Under the pieces are notes generated by a model, which was given only the letters and a program-made list of their open reading frames with translations, ran no database searches and was not told where the DNA came from. From Streptomyces naganishii JCM 4654 (GTDB lineage: Bacteria > Actinomycetota > Actinomycetes > Streptomycetales > Streptomycetaceae), in assembly GCF_014650575.1 (NCBI RefSeq), contig NZ_BMVF01000011.1:62001-126000 (forward strand): a DNA stretch of 64,000 bases. Reading direction: 5' to 3'. The position numbers and the translations under genes are program-made. Below are positions 11,905-39,386 of this stretch, in pieces; positions within the stretch are counted from its first letter, which is position 1; the number at the start of each line of letters is the position of its first letter.

Positions 11905-11960
11905 ACCGTCATGTATGCGTGGGCGGTGCCGACGGACATGCCGAAGCCGGCGACGATCGG
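11905..11960 (-). pseudogene. Transposase HTH fragment (IS5-like)
   Basis: On the minus strand a short frame reads PIVAGFGMSVGTAHAYMT, closely resembling the helix-turn-helix of IS5-type transposases (AAGFGVSVGTAxAYV). Nothing else of an element is recognisable around it, so it is a scrap left by a former insertion. Confidence 0.4.
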
Positions 11961-31281: not shown

Positions 31282-32700
31282 TCACGTACTTCGCGGAACC
31301 GGCGGGGGCAGCGGCGGCAGGCGGGTGTCGTAGAGCCAGGCGTGCAGCAGCGGGGCCACCGCACCCGGCATGGTGCGGTCGGCGTGGGCGACGAAGGCGG
31401 CGGTGTCGGCGCTCCTGCCGCGGTGGGTGTCGTGCCAGCCGCGCAGCATCGCGAAGAAGCGGTCGTCGCCCGTCGTCAGGCGCAGTGCGTGCAGCGTGCA
31501 CGCCCCCCGGTCGTACACCCGGTCGTCGAAGATGCGGTCCGGTCCGGGGTCGGCGATCCGCAGGCCCCCGCCCCGCCGGGCGAGGGTGTTCCAGGCCGCC
31601 CGGGCGATGGTGTCCGCGGAGTCCTCGCCGAGGTGCTCGGACCACAGCCATTCCCCGTAGGTGGCGAAGCCCTCGTTGAGCCAGATGTCCCGCCAGTCTC
31701 GCAGGCCGACGCTGTTGCCGTACCACTGGTGGACGAGCTCGTGGGCGACCAGCGTCTCCCAGGTGCGCTCGCCGTCGATGTGGTTGCGGCCGAAGACCGA
31801 CGCCGTCTGGTTCTCCACCGGCTGGTCCAGATCGGCGTCCACGACGATGGCGCCGTAGGTCTCGAAGGGGTAGGGCCCGAACCACCGGGTGAACGCCTCG
31901 AACATCTCGGGCTGGCGCCCCAGATCGTGCCGGGCCAGGTCGGACAGGCGGACGGGGCAGGCGTTGCGGCCGGTGACCGTGCGGCCCGTCGCGCTGTCCC
32001 TGGCCTGCCAGGTCTCGTGCGCGAAGCGGCCGGTGTAGAGCGCTGCGAGGTAGGGCGCCATGGGGCCCCGATGGTGGTACGTCCAGCACTCGGTGGCCCC
32101 CGACTCGCGCCGCTCCAGCAAGGCGCCGTTGGCCAGCACCTGGTGGCCGCGGGGCACGGTCACCCGGAAGGTGAACTCGGCCTTGTCGTCCGGGCGGTCG
32201 TTGCACGGGAACCACGACGGGGCGCCCAGCGGCTGGGCGGCCACCATGGTCCCGTCGTGTCCGTCGCCCGTACGGTCCCAGCCGATCTGCCCGAACGGCG
32301 TGCGGACCGGGCCGGGCCGGCCGCCGTAGCCGATCTCCAGGGTGAAGGGGGCGCCCGCCGGGATATGGCGCGGCACGGGCAGCAGCAGCTTGTGCCCCTT
32401 GCGGCCCGGCCGCACGGCGGTCCCGTCGACGAGCGCCTCGTCGACGGAGAGCCGGGCGAGGTCCAGGCGGACCTGACGCAGCGTGCGCTCGGCGACCGCC
32501 CGGATGTGCGCCCGGCCCCGGAGCCTGCCGGCGGCCGGGTCGTAGTCCAGGTGGAGGTCGTAGGCGAGCGTGCGGTACTCGTAGCTGCCGTGACCGGCGA
32601 AGTAGCGCCGGGCCGGCCTCGGCAGGCCGTCGGCGGCCACCGCCGCGAGCGGGGCGAGCGCCGCGCCCCGGACCAGGGCGCGCCGGCTGCACCAGGTCAC
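31282..32700 (-). CDS. M1-family zinc metallopeptidase coupled to pls
   Basis: 472-aa gluzincin aminopeptidase. The zinc site is complete: His320-Glu321-x-x-His324 (HELVHQ) and Glu343 (NEGFATYGE) with the canonical 18-residue spacing. The exopeptidase loop is PVENQT. The N-terminus (SRRALVRGAALAPLAAVAA) is a signal peptide or membrane anchor, so the enzyme acts at or outside the membrane. GTG start 32700; its first bases overlap the pls stop (GTGA), indicating translational coupling. The epsilon-polylysine-degrading activity described in Streptomyces albulus is a membrane-bound zinc aminopeptidase, so a role in trimming or self-protection against the Pls polymer is a reasoned inference. A general aminopeptidase role remains possible. 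Confidence 0.9.
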   Translation of the reverse strand: MTWCSRRALVRGAALAPLAAVAADGLPRPARRYFAGHGSYEYRTLAYDLHLDYDPAAGRLRGRAHIRAVAERTLRQVRLDLARLSVDEALVDGTAVRPGRKGHKLLLPVPRHIPAGAPFTLEIGYGGRPGPVRTPFGQIGWDRTGDGHDGTMVAAQPLGAPSWFPCNDRPDDKAEFTFRVTVPRGHQVLANGALLERRESGATECWTYHHRGPMAPYLAALYTGRFAHETWQARDSATGRTVTGRNACPVRLSDLARHDLGRQPEMFEAFTRWFGPYPFETYGAIVVDADLDQPVENQTASVFGRNHIDGERTWETLVAHELVHQWYGNSVGLRDWRDIWLNEGFATYGEWLWSEHLGEDSADTIARAAWNTLARRGGGLRIADPGPDRIFDDRVYDRGACTLHALRLTTGDDRFFAMLRGWHDTHRGRSADTAAFVAHADRTMPGAVAPLLHAWLYDTRLPPLPPPVPRST

Positions 32701-35700
32701 GCCGTCTCCCTCTCGGCCGGCCGTACGGCGGGGACGGCCGCGGGCACGCCGGCGATGGGGTTGCCGGCCCAGCGGGTGCCGTCGGGCACCGTCTCCCCGC
32801 GCATCACCAGGGACGCCGCCGCGATGGACGCGCCCGCGCCGATCGCCGTGCCGGGCAGCGCGATGCTGTGCGGGCCCAGGGAGGCGCCGGCGGCCAGGCG
32901 CACGGTGTCCATCCGCATGATCCGGTCGTGGAAGAGGTGGGTCTGGAGCACGCAGCCGCGGTTGACGGTGGCGCCGTCGCCGATGCTGACCAGATCGGTC
33001 TCCGGTAGCCAGTAGGTGTCGCACCACACGCCGCGTCCGATGCGCGCGCCCAGGGTGCGCAGCCACCAGTTCACCACCGGTGTGCCCAGGTGCGCGGCGA
33101 TGCCCCACGGCACGGCCAGCACCTCGACGAACGTGTCGAACAACTCGTTGCGCCACACGAACGACGACCACAGGGGCCGCTCCACCGGCCGGAACCGGCC
33201 CACGAGCAGCCACTTCGCGGCGGTCGTGACCAGGCAGGCCGCGAGCGAGGCGGCCAGGAGCAGCGGAACGCCCGCCAGCGCCGCCAGGGTCAGGCCGCCC
33301 ACGTCCAGGGCTTCCTGCTGGGCCAGCAGCAGGCCCTCGGCCAGCAGCGTGCCGAGGATCACCGGCAGCACCCGGCACGCCTCGACGGCCGCGCGCGCCG
33401 CCACCAGCCGCCTCGGCGGGGCGAACGTCCGCGCCGAGTCGCCTGTCTGGGCCACGCGGGGCAACGGCATCGCGGGCCGGCCGATCCACGACGAGCGTGG
33501 TTCGCTGCGCACCGGCGCGTCCGACAGCACGCCCACCAGGGCATGGTCGGCGACCTCACGGCCGGGGCCGACGATGCCGGAGTTGCCGACGAAGGCCCGC
33601 CTGCCGATCCGCACGGCCCCCAACCGCATCCAGCCGCCGCGCAGTTCGTACGGTGCCACGAGCGTGTCGTCGGCGAGGAACGCCCCGTCCTCGACCCGCA
33701 GCAGCGACGGCAGCGGCAGTACGGTCGAGATCTCGGCGCCGCGGCCGACCCGGGCGCCGAGGAGGCGCAGCCAGGCCGGGGTGGCCAGGCTCGCGTACAG
33801 CGGGAACAGGGAGCCGCGCGCTCCGTCGAGCAGCCGTGTCACCAGCCAGGCCCGCCAGGCCACGCCCCCGTCGGCGCGGTGCAGACCGGGCGTGATCGAG
33901 CGGCTCAGCAGGCGCACGGTGAGCGCGGTGAGGAGCATCCCGCACCCGGCGGTCAGCACGGCGAACAGCGGGGCGGCGGCCAGCAGCCGCCAGGCCGCCC
34001 CGGACAGCGTGCCGCTCCTCTTCAGCAGCAGCCAGGTGAGGGCCAGCGCCGGGGCGGTGGCCAGCAGCGACACCAGCGGCAGCCCGGCGAGCGACAGCCC
34101 GTAGGCGAGGTGCCAGCGGCGCCGGCGGTCCGCCGGCGGGGTGGGCCAGCCCGGCTCCGCGAGGTGTTCGCCGGATGCGGCCGGGCGGGCAGGTGAGCCG
34201 TTCCACACCTGGCCGTCCGGGACACGGCCGTCCAGGCAGCCGCCGGGGGCGAGTTCCGCACCGCGCCCGAGCACCGCGCCCGGCAGCAGGGTGCTGCGGT
34301 GGCCCACCCTGGCGTCGGCGCCGACGACGATCCGGCCGATGTGCAGCGTGTCGCCGTCGAGCCACCAGCCCGCGATGTCGGCCTCCGGTTCGACGCTGCA
34401 CCGGTCGCCCAGTTCGGCCAGGCCGGTCACCGGGGGCATGGCGTGCAGCAGTACGTCCCGCCCGGTGCGGCAGCCGAGGATGCGGGCGTACAGCGCGGCC
34501 CACGGGGTGCCCAGCAGGGACGGCACTCCGAACGCGGCGACCGCGCGCTCCGCGCTCCACAGGCGCAGGTGGACGGCGCCGCCGCGCGGATGGGCGCCCG
34601 GCGTGATCGAGCCGGCCAGCGCGCGGGCGAGGGCCGCCCCGAGCAGGCACCGCACGGGCGCGCTGAACAGCAGCACCCACCCGGCCAGGACCAGCCACCA
34701 CGAGGTGTGCGGCGCCCACCGCTGCGGCGCGATCCAGCCGAGGACGTCGTCCGCCGCGGCCAGGCCGACCAGGCCGCGCAATCCGGTGACGCCGTAACCG
34801 GCCAGGGAGACGAGGAACTGCGCCACGGAGGTCCGCCGGGGCACCGGCCGGGCGGGGCGCACCTCCTCGGCGGCGCCCGCCAGGGAGTCGAGATGGCCGG
34901 CCATGCTCCGCAGCACCGGGTGGCGGTACAGGTCGGCGACCGACAGGCCCGGGTAGTCCTCGCGCAGCACCGAGGCCATCCGGGCGGCGGTCAGGCTGGT
35001 GCCGCCCAGCTGGACGAAGTCGCTGTCCGGACCGGGCCGCACACCCAGCAACTCCTCCCAGACGTTCGCCAGTCGGGCGGCGGTCCCGTGCAGCCGGCGG
35101 GCCGCCTCGCCGCCGTGCCCGGCGCCGGCCGTCGGCACCGGCCAGGGCAGCGCCCTGCGGTCCACCTTCCCGGAAGCCCGCGTGGGCAGGTCCGCGACCT
35201 CGGCCAGCACCGGCACCAGCGGGGCGGGCAGCCGTTCGAGCAGCAGCGCCCGCGCCTTGTCCGCGTCGAAGACGCGGCGGCCGTCGGCGGTCTCCTGCGC
35301 GACTATGTAGCCGATCAGCACCTGGGCGCCGGCCGTCGTGGCCTGCACGGCCGCCGCCGCGCCCCGCACCCCCGGCAGGGCGAGCAGAGCGGCGTCGATC
35401 TCACCGAGTTCCACGCGGCGTCCGCCGAGCTTGACCTGGTCGTCGGCTCGGCCGAGGAACACCAGTCCCTCGGCGTCCGCGCGCACGAGGTCGCCCGAGC
35501 GGTAGGCGCGCGGCGAGCCCAGCGCCGGGCACGGCCGGAAGCGCTCCGCGTCCTTGACGGGGTCGAGGTAGCGTGCGGTTCCGGCGCCCGCGATGACCAG
35601 TTCGCCCTGTTCGCCGAAGGCGACGGGGTTCCCGGCCTCGTCCACCACCGCCAACTCCCAGCCGGCCAGGGGCAGTCCGATGCGCACCGGCTGCCCGGGC

Positions 35701-36656
35701 TCCATCCGGGCGGCGCAGGCGACCACGGTGGTCTCCGTGGGGCCGTAGGTGTTCCACATCTCCCGCCCGGGGCGGGCGAACCGTTCGACGAGCCCGGGCG
35801 GGGAGGCCTCGCCGCCCAGGATCAGCAGCCGGACCCGGCGCAGCGCCTCCTCGGGCCACATCGCCAGCAGCGTCGGCACGGTGGATACGGCGGTGATCCG
35901 GCGGTCGTCCAGCCAGGGGCCGAGTTCCAGCCCGGCACGGACGAGGGAGCGTTCGGCCGGCACCAGGCAGGCGCCGGAGCGCCAGGCCAGCCACATCTCC
36001 TCGCAGGAGGCGTCGAAGGCGACCGAGAGGCCCGCGAGGACCCGGTCGCCGGGACCGAGGGGCCGGCCGCGCAGGAAGAGCCCGGCCTCCGCGTCGACGA
36101 ACGCGGCGGCGGAACGGTGGGTGACGGCCACGCCCTTGGGGGCGCCGGTCGAACCGGAGGTGAAGATGATCCAGGCGTCGTCGCCGGGGCCGGGCGCGGT
36201 GCCCGCCGCGGTCCCGGACGCGGGTGCCAGCTCGGCGGGTTGCGGGTGCGGTCCGAGGACGCGGCAGACACCGGCCTCGCGGAAGACGGTCGCGGCGCGG
36301 TCCTCGGGGTCGTCGGCGTCGACCGGGACGTAGGCCGCGCCGCAGTGCAGGACCGCGAGGATCGACAGGTACAACTCCGCGGTGCCCGACGGCACTCGTA
36401 CGCCCACCCGGTCCCCGGGGCCGATGCCCTGCTCGGTGAGCCGCCCCGCGCGGGCGCGGGCCTCGGCGCACAACTCCCGGTAGGACAGCACCTCGGCGCC
36501 CGTGTCCAGGGCGGGTGCGTCCGGGTGCAGCGCGGCGGTGGCCTCCAGGACGTCGACGAGGGTACGGGGCGGCGCGGCGGCCGCGGAGCGGAAGACGGCC
36601 CGGTTTCCCGGGAGTTCGGGCGAGGGGGGCGGGATGTCGAGCGCGGTCGAGGTCAA
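32697..36656 (-). CDS. pls: Pls/PosA-family NRPS (poly-amino acid synthetase)
   Basis: 1319-aa membrane NRPS of the epsilon-poly-L-lysine synthetase type. Adenylation domain (30-510) with FTSGSTGAPKG, NTYGPTETT, YRSGDL and ASGKVDR. The pocket reads Asp215, Ala216, Glu219, Ser258, Ile279, Gly281, Thr303, Val311, Val312, Lys497; the acidic Glu219 (position 239 in GrsA numbering) suits a basic side chain. Thiolation domain with Ser554 in LGGTSL. Then about six membrane helices alternating with three soluble modules rich in hexapeptide (left-handed beta-helix) repeats, as in Pls; no condensation HHxxxDG and no thioesterase. In Pls these modules link lysines through the side-chain amine, giving a secreted polycation. 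TTG start with AGAGG 8 nt upstream; stop overlaps the M1 gene. Product may be polylysine or a shorter diamino-acid polymer. Confidence 0.92.
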   Translation of the reverse strand: MTSTALDIPPPSPELPGNRAVFRSAAAAPPRTLVDVLEATAALHPDAPALDTGAEVLSYRELCAEARARAGRLTEQGIGPGDRVGVRVPSGTAELYLSILAVLHCGAAYVPVDADDPEDRAATVFREAGVCRVLGPHPQPAELAPASGTAAGTAPGPGDDAWIIFTSGSTGAPKGVAVTHRSAAAFVDAEAGLFLRGRPLGPGDRVLAGLSVAFDASCEEMWLAWRSGACLVPAERSLVRAGLELGPWLDDRRITAVSTVPTLLAMWPEEALRRVRLLILGGEASPPGLVERFARPGREMWNTYGPTETTVVACAARMEPGQPVRIGLPLAGWELAVVDEAGNPVAFGEQGELVIAGAGTARYLDPVKDAERFRPCPALGSPRAYRSGDLVRADAEGLVFLGRADDQVKLGGRRVELGEIDAALLALPGVRGAAAAVQATTAGAQVLIGYIVAQETADGRRVFDADKARALLLERLPAPLVPVLAEVADLPTRASGKVDRRALPWPVPTAGAGHGGEAARRLHGTAARLANVWEELLGVRPGPDSDFVQLGGTSLTAARMASVLREDYPGLSVADLYRHPVLRSMAGHLDSLAGAAEEVRPARPVPRRTSVAQFLVSLAGYGVTGLRGLVGLAAADDVLGWIAPQRWAPHTSWWLVLAGWVLLFSAPVRCLLGAALARALAGSITPGAHPRGGAVHLRLWSAERAVAAFGVPSLLGTPWAALYARILGCRTGRDVLLHAMPPVTGLAELGDRCSVEPEADIAGWWLDGDTLHIGRIVVGADARVGHRSTLLPGAVLGRGAELAPGGCLDGRVPDGQVWNGSPARPAASGEHLAEPGWPTPPADRRRRWHLAYGLSLAGLPLVSLLATAPALALTWLLLKRSGTLSGAAWRLLAAAPLFAVLTAGCGMLLTALTVRLLSRSITPGLHRADGGVAWRAWLVTRLLDGARGSLFPLYASLATPAWLRLLGARVGRGAEISTVLPLPSLLRVEDGAFLADDTLVAPYELRGGWMRLGAVRIGRRAFVGNSGIVGPGREVADHALVGVLSDAPVRSEPRSSWIGRPAMPLPRVAQTGDSARTFAPPRRLVAARAAVEACRVLPVILGTLLAEGLLLAQQEALDVGGLTLAALAGVPLLLAASLAACLVTTAAKWLLVGRFRPVERPLWSSFVWRNELFDTFVEVLAVPWGIAAHLGTPVVNWWLRTLGARIGRGVWCDTYWLPETDLVSIGDGATVNRGCVLQTHLFHDRIMRMDTVRLAAGASLGPHSIALPGTAIGAGASIAAASLVMRGETVPDGTRWAGNPIAGVPAAVPAVRPAERETA

Positions 36657-37984: not shown

Positions 37985-39271
37985 TCAGTGGGTGGCGCTG
38001 CCCGCGACCCACTCGCTCCACGGCATGTTCCAGTCGCTGAGGCCGTTGTCCGGCGACAGCTTGGTCTTGTCCACGGAGTTCTTGACGATCACGACGTCAC
38101 CGACCATCGAGTTGTCGAAATACCACGCGGCGGGCGTCCTGCTGTCGTTGCCGCCCCTGACGTCCTTCAGGCCCACGCAGCCGTGGCTGGTGTTGACCTT
38201 GCCGAACACCGAGTCGGCACCCCAGTAGTTGCCGTGGATGAACGTGCCCGAGTCGGTCAGCCGCATGGCGTGCGGCACGGCCTTGATGTCGTACGAGGGC
38301 TTGCCGTCCTTCTCCGTGAGGCCGACGGTCGCACCGTTCATGTGGACCTGCCGGAACTTCTCGGAGACGACCATCCGCCCGTTGTACGTCGGGTGCTGGT
38401 CGCTGCCGGACGAGATGGGGATGGTCTTGAGCGTCTTGCCGTCCCGCACGACGGTCATCTTCTTGGTCTTGGCGTCGACCGTGCTGATCTGGCTGCGGCC
38501 GATCTTGAACGTGACCGTCTTGTGGACGCCCTGGCGGTTCAGCTCGACCGTGACCGTCGAGCCGGCCTTCCAGTAGCTCTGCGGGCGGAAGTCCAGGCGG
38601 TGGTCGTTGAGCCAGTGACCGACGACCTGCTGGCCGCTGCTGGAGCTGACCTTGAACTCCGACTCGACGGCGGCCTTGGCGGCCTTGGTGCCGACCGCCT
38701 TGCCGAAGTCGACCGTCACCGGCATGCCCACGCCCACGGTCGAGCCGTTCGCGGGGGAGAGGTGGCCGATGAAGTCGTTGGCCGGGGAGACCGTGGTGAT
38801 CGTCGCGTTCGCGGTGGCGGAGCGGCCCTGGGCGTCGTCGGCCTCCGCGGCGACCTGGTACTTGGTGGCCGGCTTCAGCGGACCGTCCGGCTTCCAGGAC
38901 GTGCCGTCCGCGGACAGCGTGCCCCGGACCTCTGAGCCAGTCGCGAGGGCCGTCATGGTCACCTTGGTGAGCTTGCCGTTGCTGACGGTGACCGTGACGG
39001 GTCCGTTGACCCCGACCCCGTGCGAGCCCTGCTGGGGCGTGATCGTTATTCGGGCGTCGGACGCGTCCTGGGCGGCCGCCTTGTCCGGCTGGGCCGCCTG
39101 GGTCGCCTGCGCCTGCGCTGTCGGGTGGGCTCCGGTGCCGGCCCCGGGGTCGGCACCGTTGCCGCCGGTGGCGGCGCTGCTGGTGCCGCCGAGGGCCGTC
39201 ACCGCGAGTACGCCGCCGAGTACGCCGGCCGCAGCCGTCAGTCCAGTGCGTCGGTTACGTGCCGTGATCAA
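37985..39271 (-). CDS. L,D-transpeptidase with Ig-like domains (YkuD)
   Basis: Exported peptidoglycan cross-linking enzyme, 428 aa. TTG 39271 is chosen because GGAGAAA lies 6 nt upstream; the ATG at 39310 has no ribosome site. N-terminal membrane/signal segment (TGLTAAAGVLGGVLAVTAL), an Ala/Gln/Thr-rich linker, two Ig-like domains (about 90-270), then the YkuD catalytic domain with His in FIHGNYWG and the nucleophile cysteine in SHGCVGL. The domain order matches the mycobacterial LdtMt2 type and Streptomyces homologues. It forms 3-3 cross-links, or attaches proteins, in the wall. Confidence 0.9.
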   Translation of the reverse strand: MITARNRRTGLTAAAGVLGGVLAVTALGGTSSAATGGNGADPGAGTGAHPTAQAQATQAAQPDKAAAQDASDARITITPQQGSHGVGVNGPVTVTVSNGKLTKVTMTALATGSEVRGTLSADGTSWKPDGPLKPATKYQVAAEADDAQGRSATANATITTVSPANDFIGHLSPANGSTVGVGMPVTVDFGKAVGTKAAKAAVESEFKVSSSSGQQVVGHWLNDHRLDFRPQSYWKAGSTVTVELNRQGVHKTVTFKIGRSQISTVDAKTKKMTVVRDGKTLKTIPISSGSDQHPTYNGRMVVSEKFRQVHMNGATVGLTEKDGKPSYDIKAVPHAMRLTDSGTFIHGNYWGADSVFGKVNTSHGCVGLKDVRGGNDSRTPAAWYFDNSMVGDVVIVKNSVDKTKLSPDNGLSDWNMPWSEWVAGSATH

Positions 39272-39386
39272 ACGCTTTCTCCAAGCCGCTGGTGTGAGCT
39301 TTAGAAGCATTTATAGGCACACAAGGGCACTGAAATGGGCAAAATGTGCTGAAGGCCACGGATGTGTAACGGTGGCGAATCGGTGT

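Follow-up and report, generated by a model that had tools for sequence, protein, structure and literature searches.

Two overlapping genes on the minus strand

The window, i.e., the whole stretch of 64,000 nucleotides that was analysed, contains two overlapping genes on its minus strand. The upstream gene, pls (32697..36656), is an open frame of 1319 aa with a TTG start, encoding a candidate epsilon-poly-L-lysine synthetase of the A-T-membrane NRPS type. Its adenylation domain covers residues about 37-503 (35148..36548), with the Pfam AMP-binding match at residues 37-362, and is followed by a Pfam carrier (thiolation) domain at residues 528-589 (34890..35075) and by a Pls/PosA membrane terminal domain at residues 612-1301 (32754..34823). 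The latter was recognised with TIGR02353, the NCBI Pls/PosA model, at 649.8 bits for a cut-off of 423.1. Pfam also revealed a hexapeptide repeat, and found neither a condensation nor a thioesterase domain in Pls at E <= 0.001. The top match of Pls among solved structures is 7wew_A, the A domain of an ε-poly-L-lysine synthase (E 1.4e-234). Pfam and TIGR02353 thus bear out the sequence-only reading, which had described a 1319-aa A-T-membrane NRPS devoid of thioesterase and condensation domains, and its assignment to the ε-polylysine synthetase family is upheld by the TIGR02353 score above the cut-off and by the 7wew_A match.

The serine of the carrier GGTSL motif is aligned with a serine in 81 out of 81 rows. 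In a simple hydropathy scan, five hydrophobic regions of Pls rise above threshold, near residues 653-677, 850-879, 890-918, 1093-1112 and 1116-1152, and fall at plausible places for a family in which six transmembrane segments between three soluble domains are expected.

The downstream gene, of the pldII type (31282..32700, minus strand), has a GTG start and encodes a 472-aa M1 metallopeptidase with both Pfam M1 domains. Its zinc site HExxH-x18-E is complete, with HELVH at residues 320-324 (31729..31743, minus strand) and the third ligand, a Glu counted on the sequence, after 18 intervening residues. As in the definition of PldII, the M1 gene directly follows and overlaps pls, the two sharing the tetranucleotide GTGA (32697..32700, i.e., minus strand bases 32700-32697), in which GTG opens the M1 frame and TGA closes pls. 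Both the complete HELVH...E site and the GTGA overlap had been pointed out in the sequence-only reading and are confirmed. The overlap suggests that translation of the peptidase may be coupled to that of pls. In addition, the N-terminus of the M1 protein carries SRRALVRG, which resembles a twin-arginine motif (identified by eye), and then a short hydrophobic segment, features that would agree with the location outside the membrane reported for PldII. The top solved match of the peptidase is 6a8z_A (E 6.9e-52), a short M1 metalloprotease of similar length, which we take to be from Deinococcus. The window contains this one pair, and no further Pls equipped with an adenylation domain was observed there.

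Conservation of the pls-M1 pairing

Relatives of the locus were found with patterns derived from the window's own synthetase, and the best 80 of 377 confirmed relatives, which therefore lean to close ones, were compared. An M1 gene lies directly downstream of pls in 63 out of 80, including one locus (L061) with only a 75-residue M1 piece at a contig end. It is absent in 12, and the last five have less than 2 kb after pls, i.e., L018 and L035 with nothing after pls and L048, L049 and L050 with 612-1736 bases, so that 12 of the 17 loci without adjacent M1 are informative, among 75 loci that could be judged. Of the 63 relatives in which M1 is adjacent, 39 offer an in-frame start that overlaps the pls stop as in the window. 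On the Pls tree, the M1 presence label switches at least five times, in a quick FastTree reconstruction in which several forks are open, L048-L050 are labelled as lacking M1 and L018 and L035 are excluded.

The flanking genes do not share this conservation. Among 102 other ORFs of at least 130 aa, located between about 18 and 54 kb of the window, only 6 have a match at E <= 1e-12 among the 80 loci, none of them in more than three. This control is weak for the outer ORFs, since the loci reach no further than 8 kb to either side of pls, and some of the ORFs may not be genes. Similarly, a comparison of eight neighbour frames, several of which may not be genes, with the 80 loci gave one match, and seven of ten neighbour frames are without a Pfam match. 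The pls-M1 pairing is more than chance, with M1 in 63 of the 80 loci versus at most three for any flanking ORF. Because no flanking ORF recurs in more than three loci, the unit appears to consist of two genes, and a larger cluster around pls and M1 was rejected.

Two neighbours can be described individually. Just downstream of the peptidase, a minus-strand frame from 29834 to about 31216 encodes a protein whose N-terminus resembles a signal peptide and which contains the trypsin-like motifs YHCG and NGDSGGP (recognised by eye); no match to it was found in Pfam or in the 80 pls loci. Upstream of pls, the minus-strand frame at 37985-39310 encodes an L,D-transpeptidase with Ig-like domains, which among the 80 loci is matched in L073 only (30% over 355 aa).

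The pairing was also surveyed in 199 sampled genomes of the genus, in which 80 pls matches were obtained in 79 genomes. With an M1 cut-off of our own choice (E <= 1e-110), a 289-aa piece of the terminal domain as pls query (E <= 1e-30), and scoring limited to the first 8 and 12 candidates per genome, 76 of the 77 M1 matches have a same-strand pls match no more than 4 kb away. Four pls matches have no paired M1 (G144, G154, G053 and G126). The unpaired M1 belongs to an assembly of 1380 contigs (G154) in which the pls match lies at a contig start, the pair being split between contigs. In another genome (G144), the M1 is cut and was consequently missed by the survey, and is located on the same contig and strand as pls. 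The presence of close M1 homologues beside unrelated genes in genomes without pls, which would have spoken against a functional unit, is thus not what is found, and it is the more distant M1 paralogues (33-41% identity) that sit elsewhere in genomes. No genus-wide count of pls-M1 linkage was recognised in the titles and abstract starts of the open-licence papers searched, and these distribution data are what the present analysis adds.

It could be argued that the M1 protein is a housekeeping aminopeptidase, placed beside pls through an accident of gene order. The window's genome indeed encodes six more short M1 proteins (frames of 464-544 aa, 36-41% identity), none beside a pls. However, this explanation is extremely improbable in view of a pairing kept both in the 80 relatives and among the close homologues of the genus, while the flanking genes are not kept. 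The motif preceding HExxH also argues against it, since it reads P[VIL]E in 62 out of 62 readable pls-linked M1 rows (L061 is cut) versus ALE, SLE, ELE or AME in 12 M1 rows that are not downstream of pls (seven from the window's genome and five from related loci, where they lie upstream of pls and are encoded on the other strand). If, as we assume, this motif corresponds to GAMEN of M1 enzymes, the pls-linked enzymes look distinct at their substrate-amine site.

The adenylation pocket and the monomer

The second alternative concerns the synthetase, whose product could be another cationic homopolymer (poly-DAB, poly-DAP, poly-ornithine or poly-beta-lysine) instead of epsilon-poly-L-lysine, as all of these are reported from synthetases of the same A-T-membrane architecture or family (PMC8117764, PMC10522769). 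For example, PosA, the delta-poly-L-ornithine synthetase of Acinetobacter baumannii, is an NRPS-like enzyme of the same family with adenylation, carrier and membrane terminal domains. The pocket of the window's Pls reads DAESIGTVVK (D215, A216, E219, S258, I279, G281, T303, V311, V312 and K497), whereas that of PosA, encoded by a single-gene operon, is given as DMEHNGTVSK in a passage of PMC10522769. According to the same source, Pls enzymes have Ala at the second pocket position, PosA has Met, and the poly-DAP/DAB synthetases have Phe (PMC10522769). The window's Pls thus has the Ala and Glu of a lysine pocket at the second and third code positions, and with Ala216 it carries neither the Met nor the Phe of the other enzymes.

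The first nine pocket positions are identical in the alignment of all 80 relatives, and position 10 (K497) was checked on separately compared synthetases. Among these, all ten residues of DAESIGTVVK also occur in Pls of S. noursei A-2-1 (L105), S. griseofuscus, S. celluloflavus and S. hygroscopicus, and in both synthetases of Streptomyces sp. CoH27. In contrast, four other A-domain synthetases, from S. noursei, S. celluloflavus (two) and S. hygroscopicus, i.e., from three of the five genomes searched, read DFEYVGTVTK or DFECLSAVTK. Furthermore, the best segments of the window's Pls are 69-85% identical to Streptomyces Pls of its own tree clade, hence a homopolymer other than epsilon-poly-L-lysine is very unlikely, and a different monomer was rejected on the comparison of DAESIGTVVK with the DFE... 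and PosA pockets.

The second-position Ala, as in described Pls enzymes (PMC10522769), points to L-lysine as the most likely monomer, although an identical pocket may also be compatible with a close lysine analogue. The sequence-only reading had noted a Glu at the 239-equivalent position, as expected for a cationic amino acid; this Glu is read as Glu219, which from the A4 motif and the usual numbering we take to correspond to the classical position 239. That reading had left the monomer open and had proposed a pocket comparison, which gave a match to Pls and a difference from the DFE... synthetases. The identity of the monomer is therefore less open than it was, the pocket being of the lysine type and unlike those of the poly-DAB, poly-DAP and ornithine enzymes.

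Comparison with known pairs and loci without adjacent M1

The two overlapping genes very probably encode Pls, an epsilon-poly-L-lysine synthetase, together with PldII, an M1 metallopeptidase dedicated to degrading the product of Pls. The A domain of Pls would activate L-lysine and load it onto the carrier, and the membrane terminal domain would link lysines, via the epsilon-amino group, into chains tens of residues long. The peptidase would probably be produced from the same message via the overlapping stop and start and probably be exported to the outer face of the membrane, and it would cut the polymer, thereby limiting chain length and protecting the producer. Family membership, the lysine-type pocket, intact catalytic motifs, the gene overlap and the conserved linkage are observed at this locus. 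By analogy with characterised relatives, its product would be ε-poly-lysine, the two genes would be co-translated, and the peptidase would be exported, cleave the polymer and protect the producer.

A coupled peptidase is not a new idea, since it corresponds to PldII in S. albulus (PMC9223678) and to an operon in Corynebacterium (PMC8117764); the pair is essentially already described and its presence here is of low surprise. As stated in a passage of PMC9223678, translation of pldII in S. albulus is coupled to that of the neighbouring pls. In this organism, repression of pldII by CRISPRi led to a product peak of 44 residues and to lysis of the repressed strains, which the authors interpreted as a loss of self-protection, and according to the same passage the final yield was not raised (PMC9223678). 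This source (PMC9223678) terms PldII both endo-type and chain-end-cleaving, so that either mode of cutting may apply. In addition, a passage of a review indicates that inactivation of Pld and PldII leaves production unaffected (PMC8506220). In C. variabile, pls and the peptidase gene form a two-gene operon, and the synthetase yields epsilon-PL when expressed in S. coelicolor (PMC8117764). Nevertheless, epsilon-PL could be detected neither in C. variabile nor in a C. glutamicum made to express the C. variabile gene (PMC8117764), hence owning pls is no proof of production.

The S. albulus pair, as described in part of PMC9223678, resembles that of the window in gene order and coupling. The A domain of the window's synthetase also aligns with 7wew. 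Only ordinary sequence divergence is seen, and the flanking genes differ. The pair of S. noursei A-2-1 (L020), a strain which we presume to be close to S. albulus, has the same pocket and overlap, with 73% (best segment) and 65% identity to the window's Pls and peptidase, respectively. Over the best segment, the window's pls shares 81% identity with that of S. griseofuscus DSM 40191. Some S. griseofuscus strains are stated to produce ε-poly-lysine (PMC8443760), in a passage which does not report production by DSM 40191. The C. variabile pair is likewise two-gene, and its Pls is more distant, with 51% identity to Streptomyces Pls by description only, in a passage of PMC8117764. The idea that synthesis and degradation are encoded as one unit, put forward in the sequence-only reading, is supported by this published pairing and by the conserved linkage, and its function would follow by analogy. 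The window adds a diverged candidate producer of ε-poly-lysine, a food preservative that is more or less active according to the length of its chains (PMC9223678, PMC10522769). In many actinobacteria, as the survey indicates, synthetase and peptidase form a cassette complete in itself.

Both genes were sought in 12 genomes in which a pls has no M1 next to it. Ten of these carry another pls with M1 beside it, and the other two are Gordonia genomes in which the only pls and an M1 lie on separate contigs. Such a pattern would be expected if every producer required one or more peptidases of this type, but G053 and G126 of the genus survey, which have one pls each and only M1 paralogues of 33-39% identity, speak against a strict rule. 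No M1 was found in about 4.4 kb downstream of the G053 pls, nor in about 2.1 kb downstream of the G126 pls, whose frame reaches the contig end. The peptidase is consequently not obligatory for pls, because it is not adjacent in 12 of the 75 judged loci and because G053 and G126 have only distant paralogues. No neighbour-ORF family that could represent an alternative partner is common to more than two of the 12 loci.

In Streptomyces sp. CoH27 (L012), the pls is followed after base 11912 by an ATGA overlap and a few codons resembling a peptidase start, then by unrelated sequence (by eye), and its nearest tree neighbour, L015, retains M1. This looks like a recent loss of pldII beside relatives that retain it. 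Natural pls copies of this kind represent ready-made strains for probing the role of the peptidase. Because M1-less copies survive beside another pls-peptidase pair in ten of the 12 genomes, one hydrolase might tentatively be proposed to trim or detoxify the products of two synthetases in multi-pls genomes, although such cross-paralogue immunity seems rather doubtful. The window's own pair requires nothing beyond the known unit.

Two loci titled Bifidobacterium breve MAG (L069) and Candidatus Melainabacteria (L061) contain an actinobacterial-type pls with M1, the M1 of L061 being a piece. Both are likely mis-binned, since the tree pairs them with Mycobacterium and Solihabitans. Finally, contig 3 of the window's genome (227277-229943; L126:9278-11944, plus strand) contains an 888-aa frame with a carrier and a Pls/PosA terminal domain (829 bits), in which no adenylation domain was found. 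This frame is followed by a separate A-T-TE NRPS frame and by TauD-like and PALP-like genes, and counterparts of 880-884 aa are present in S. hygroscopicus ATCC 21589 (L102) and S. griseofuscus (L103), hinting that it is possibly a split Pls loaded in trans.
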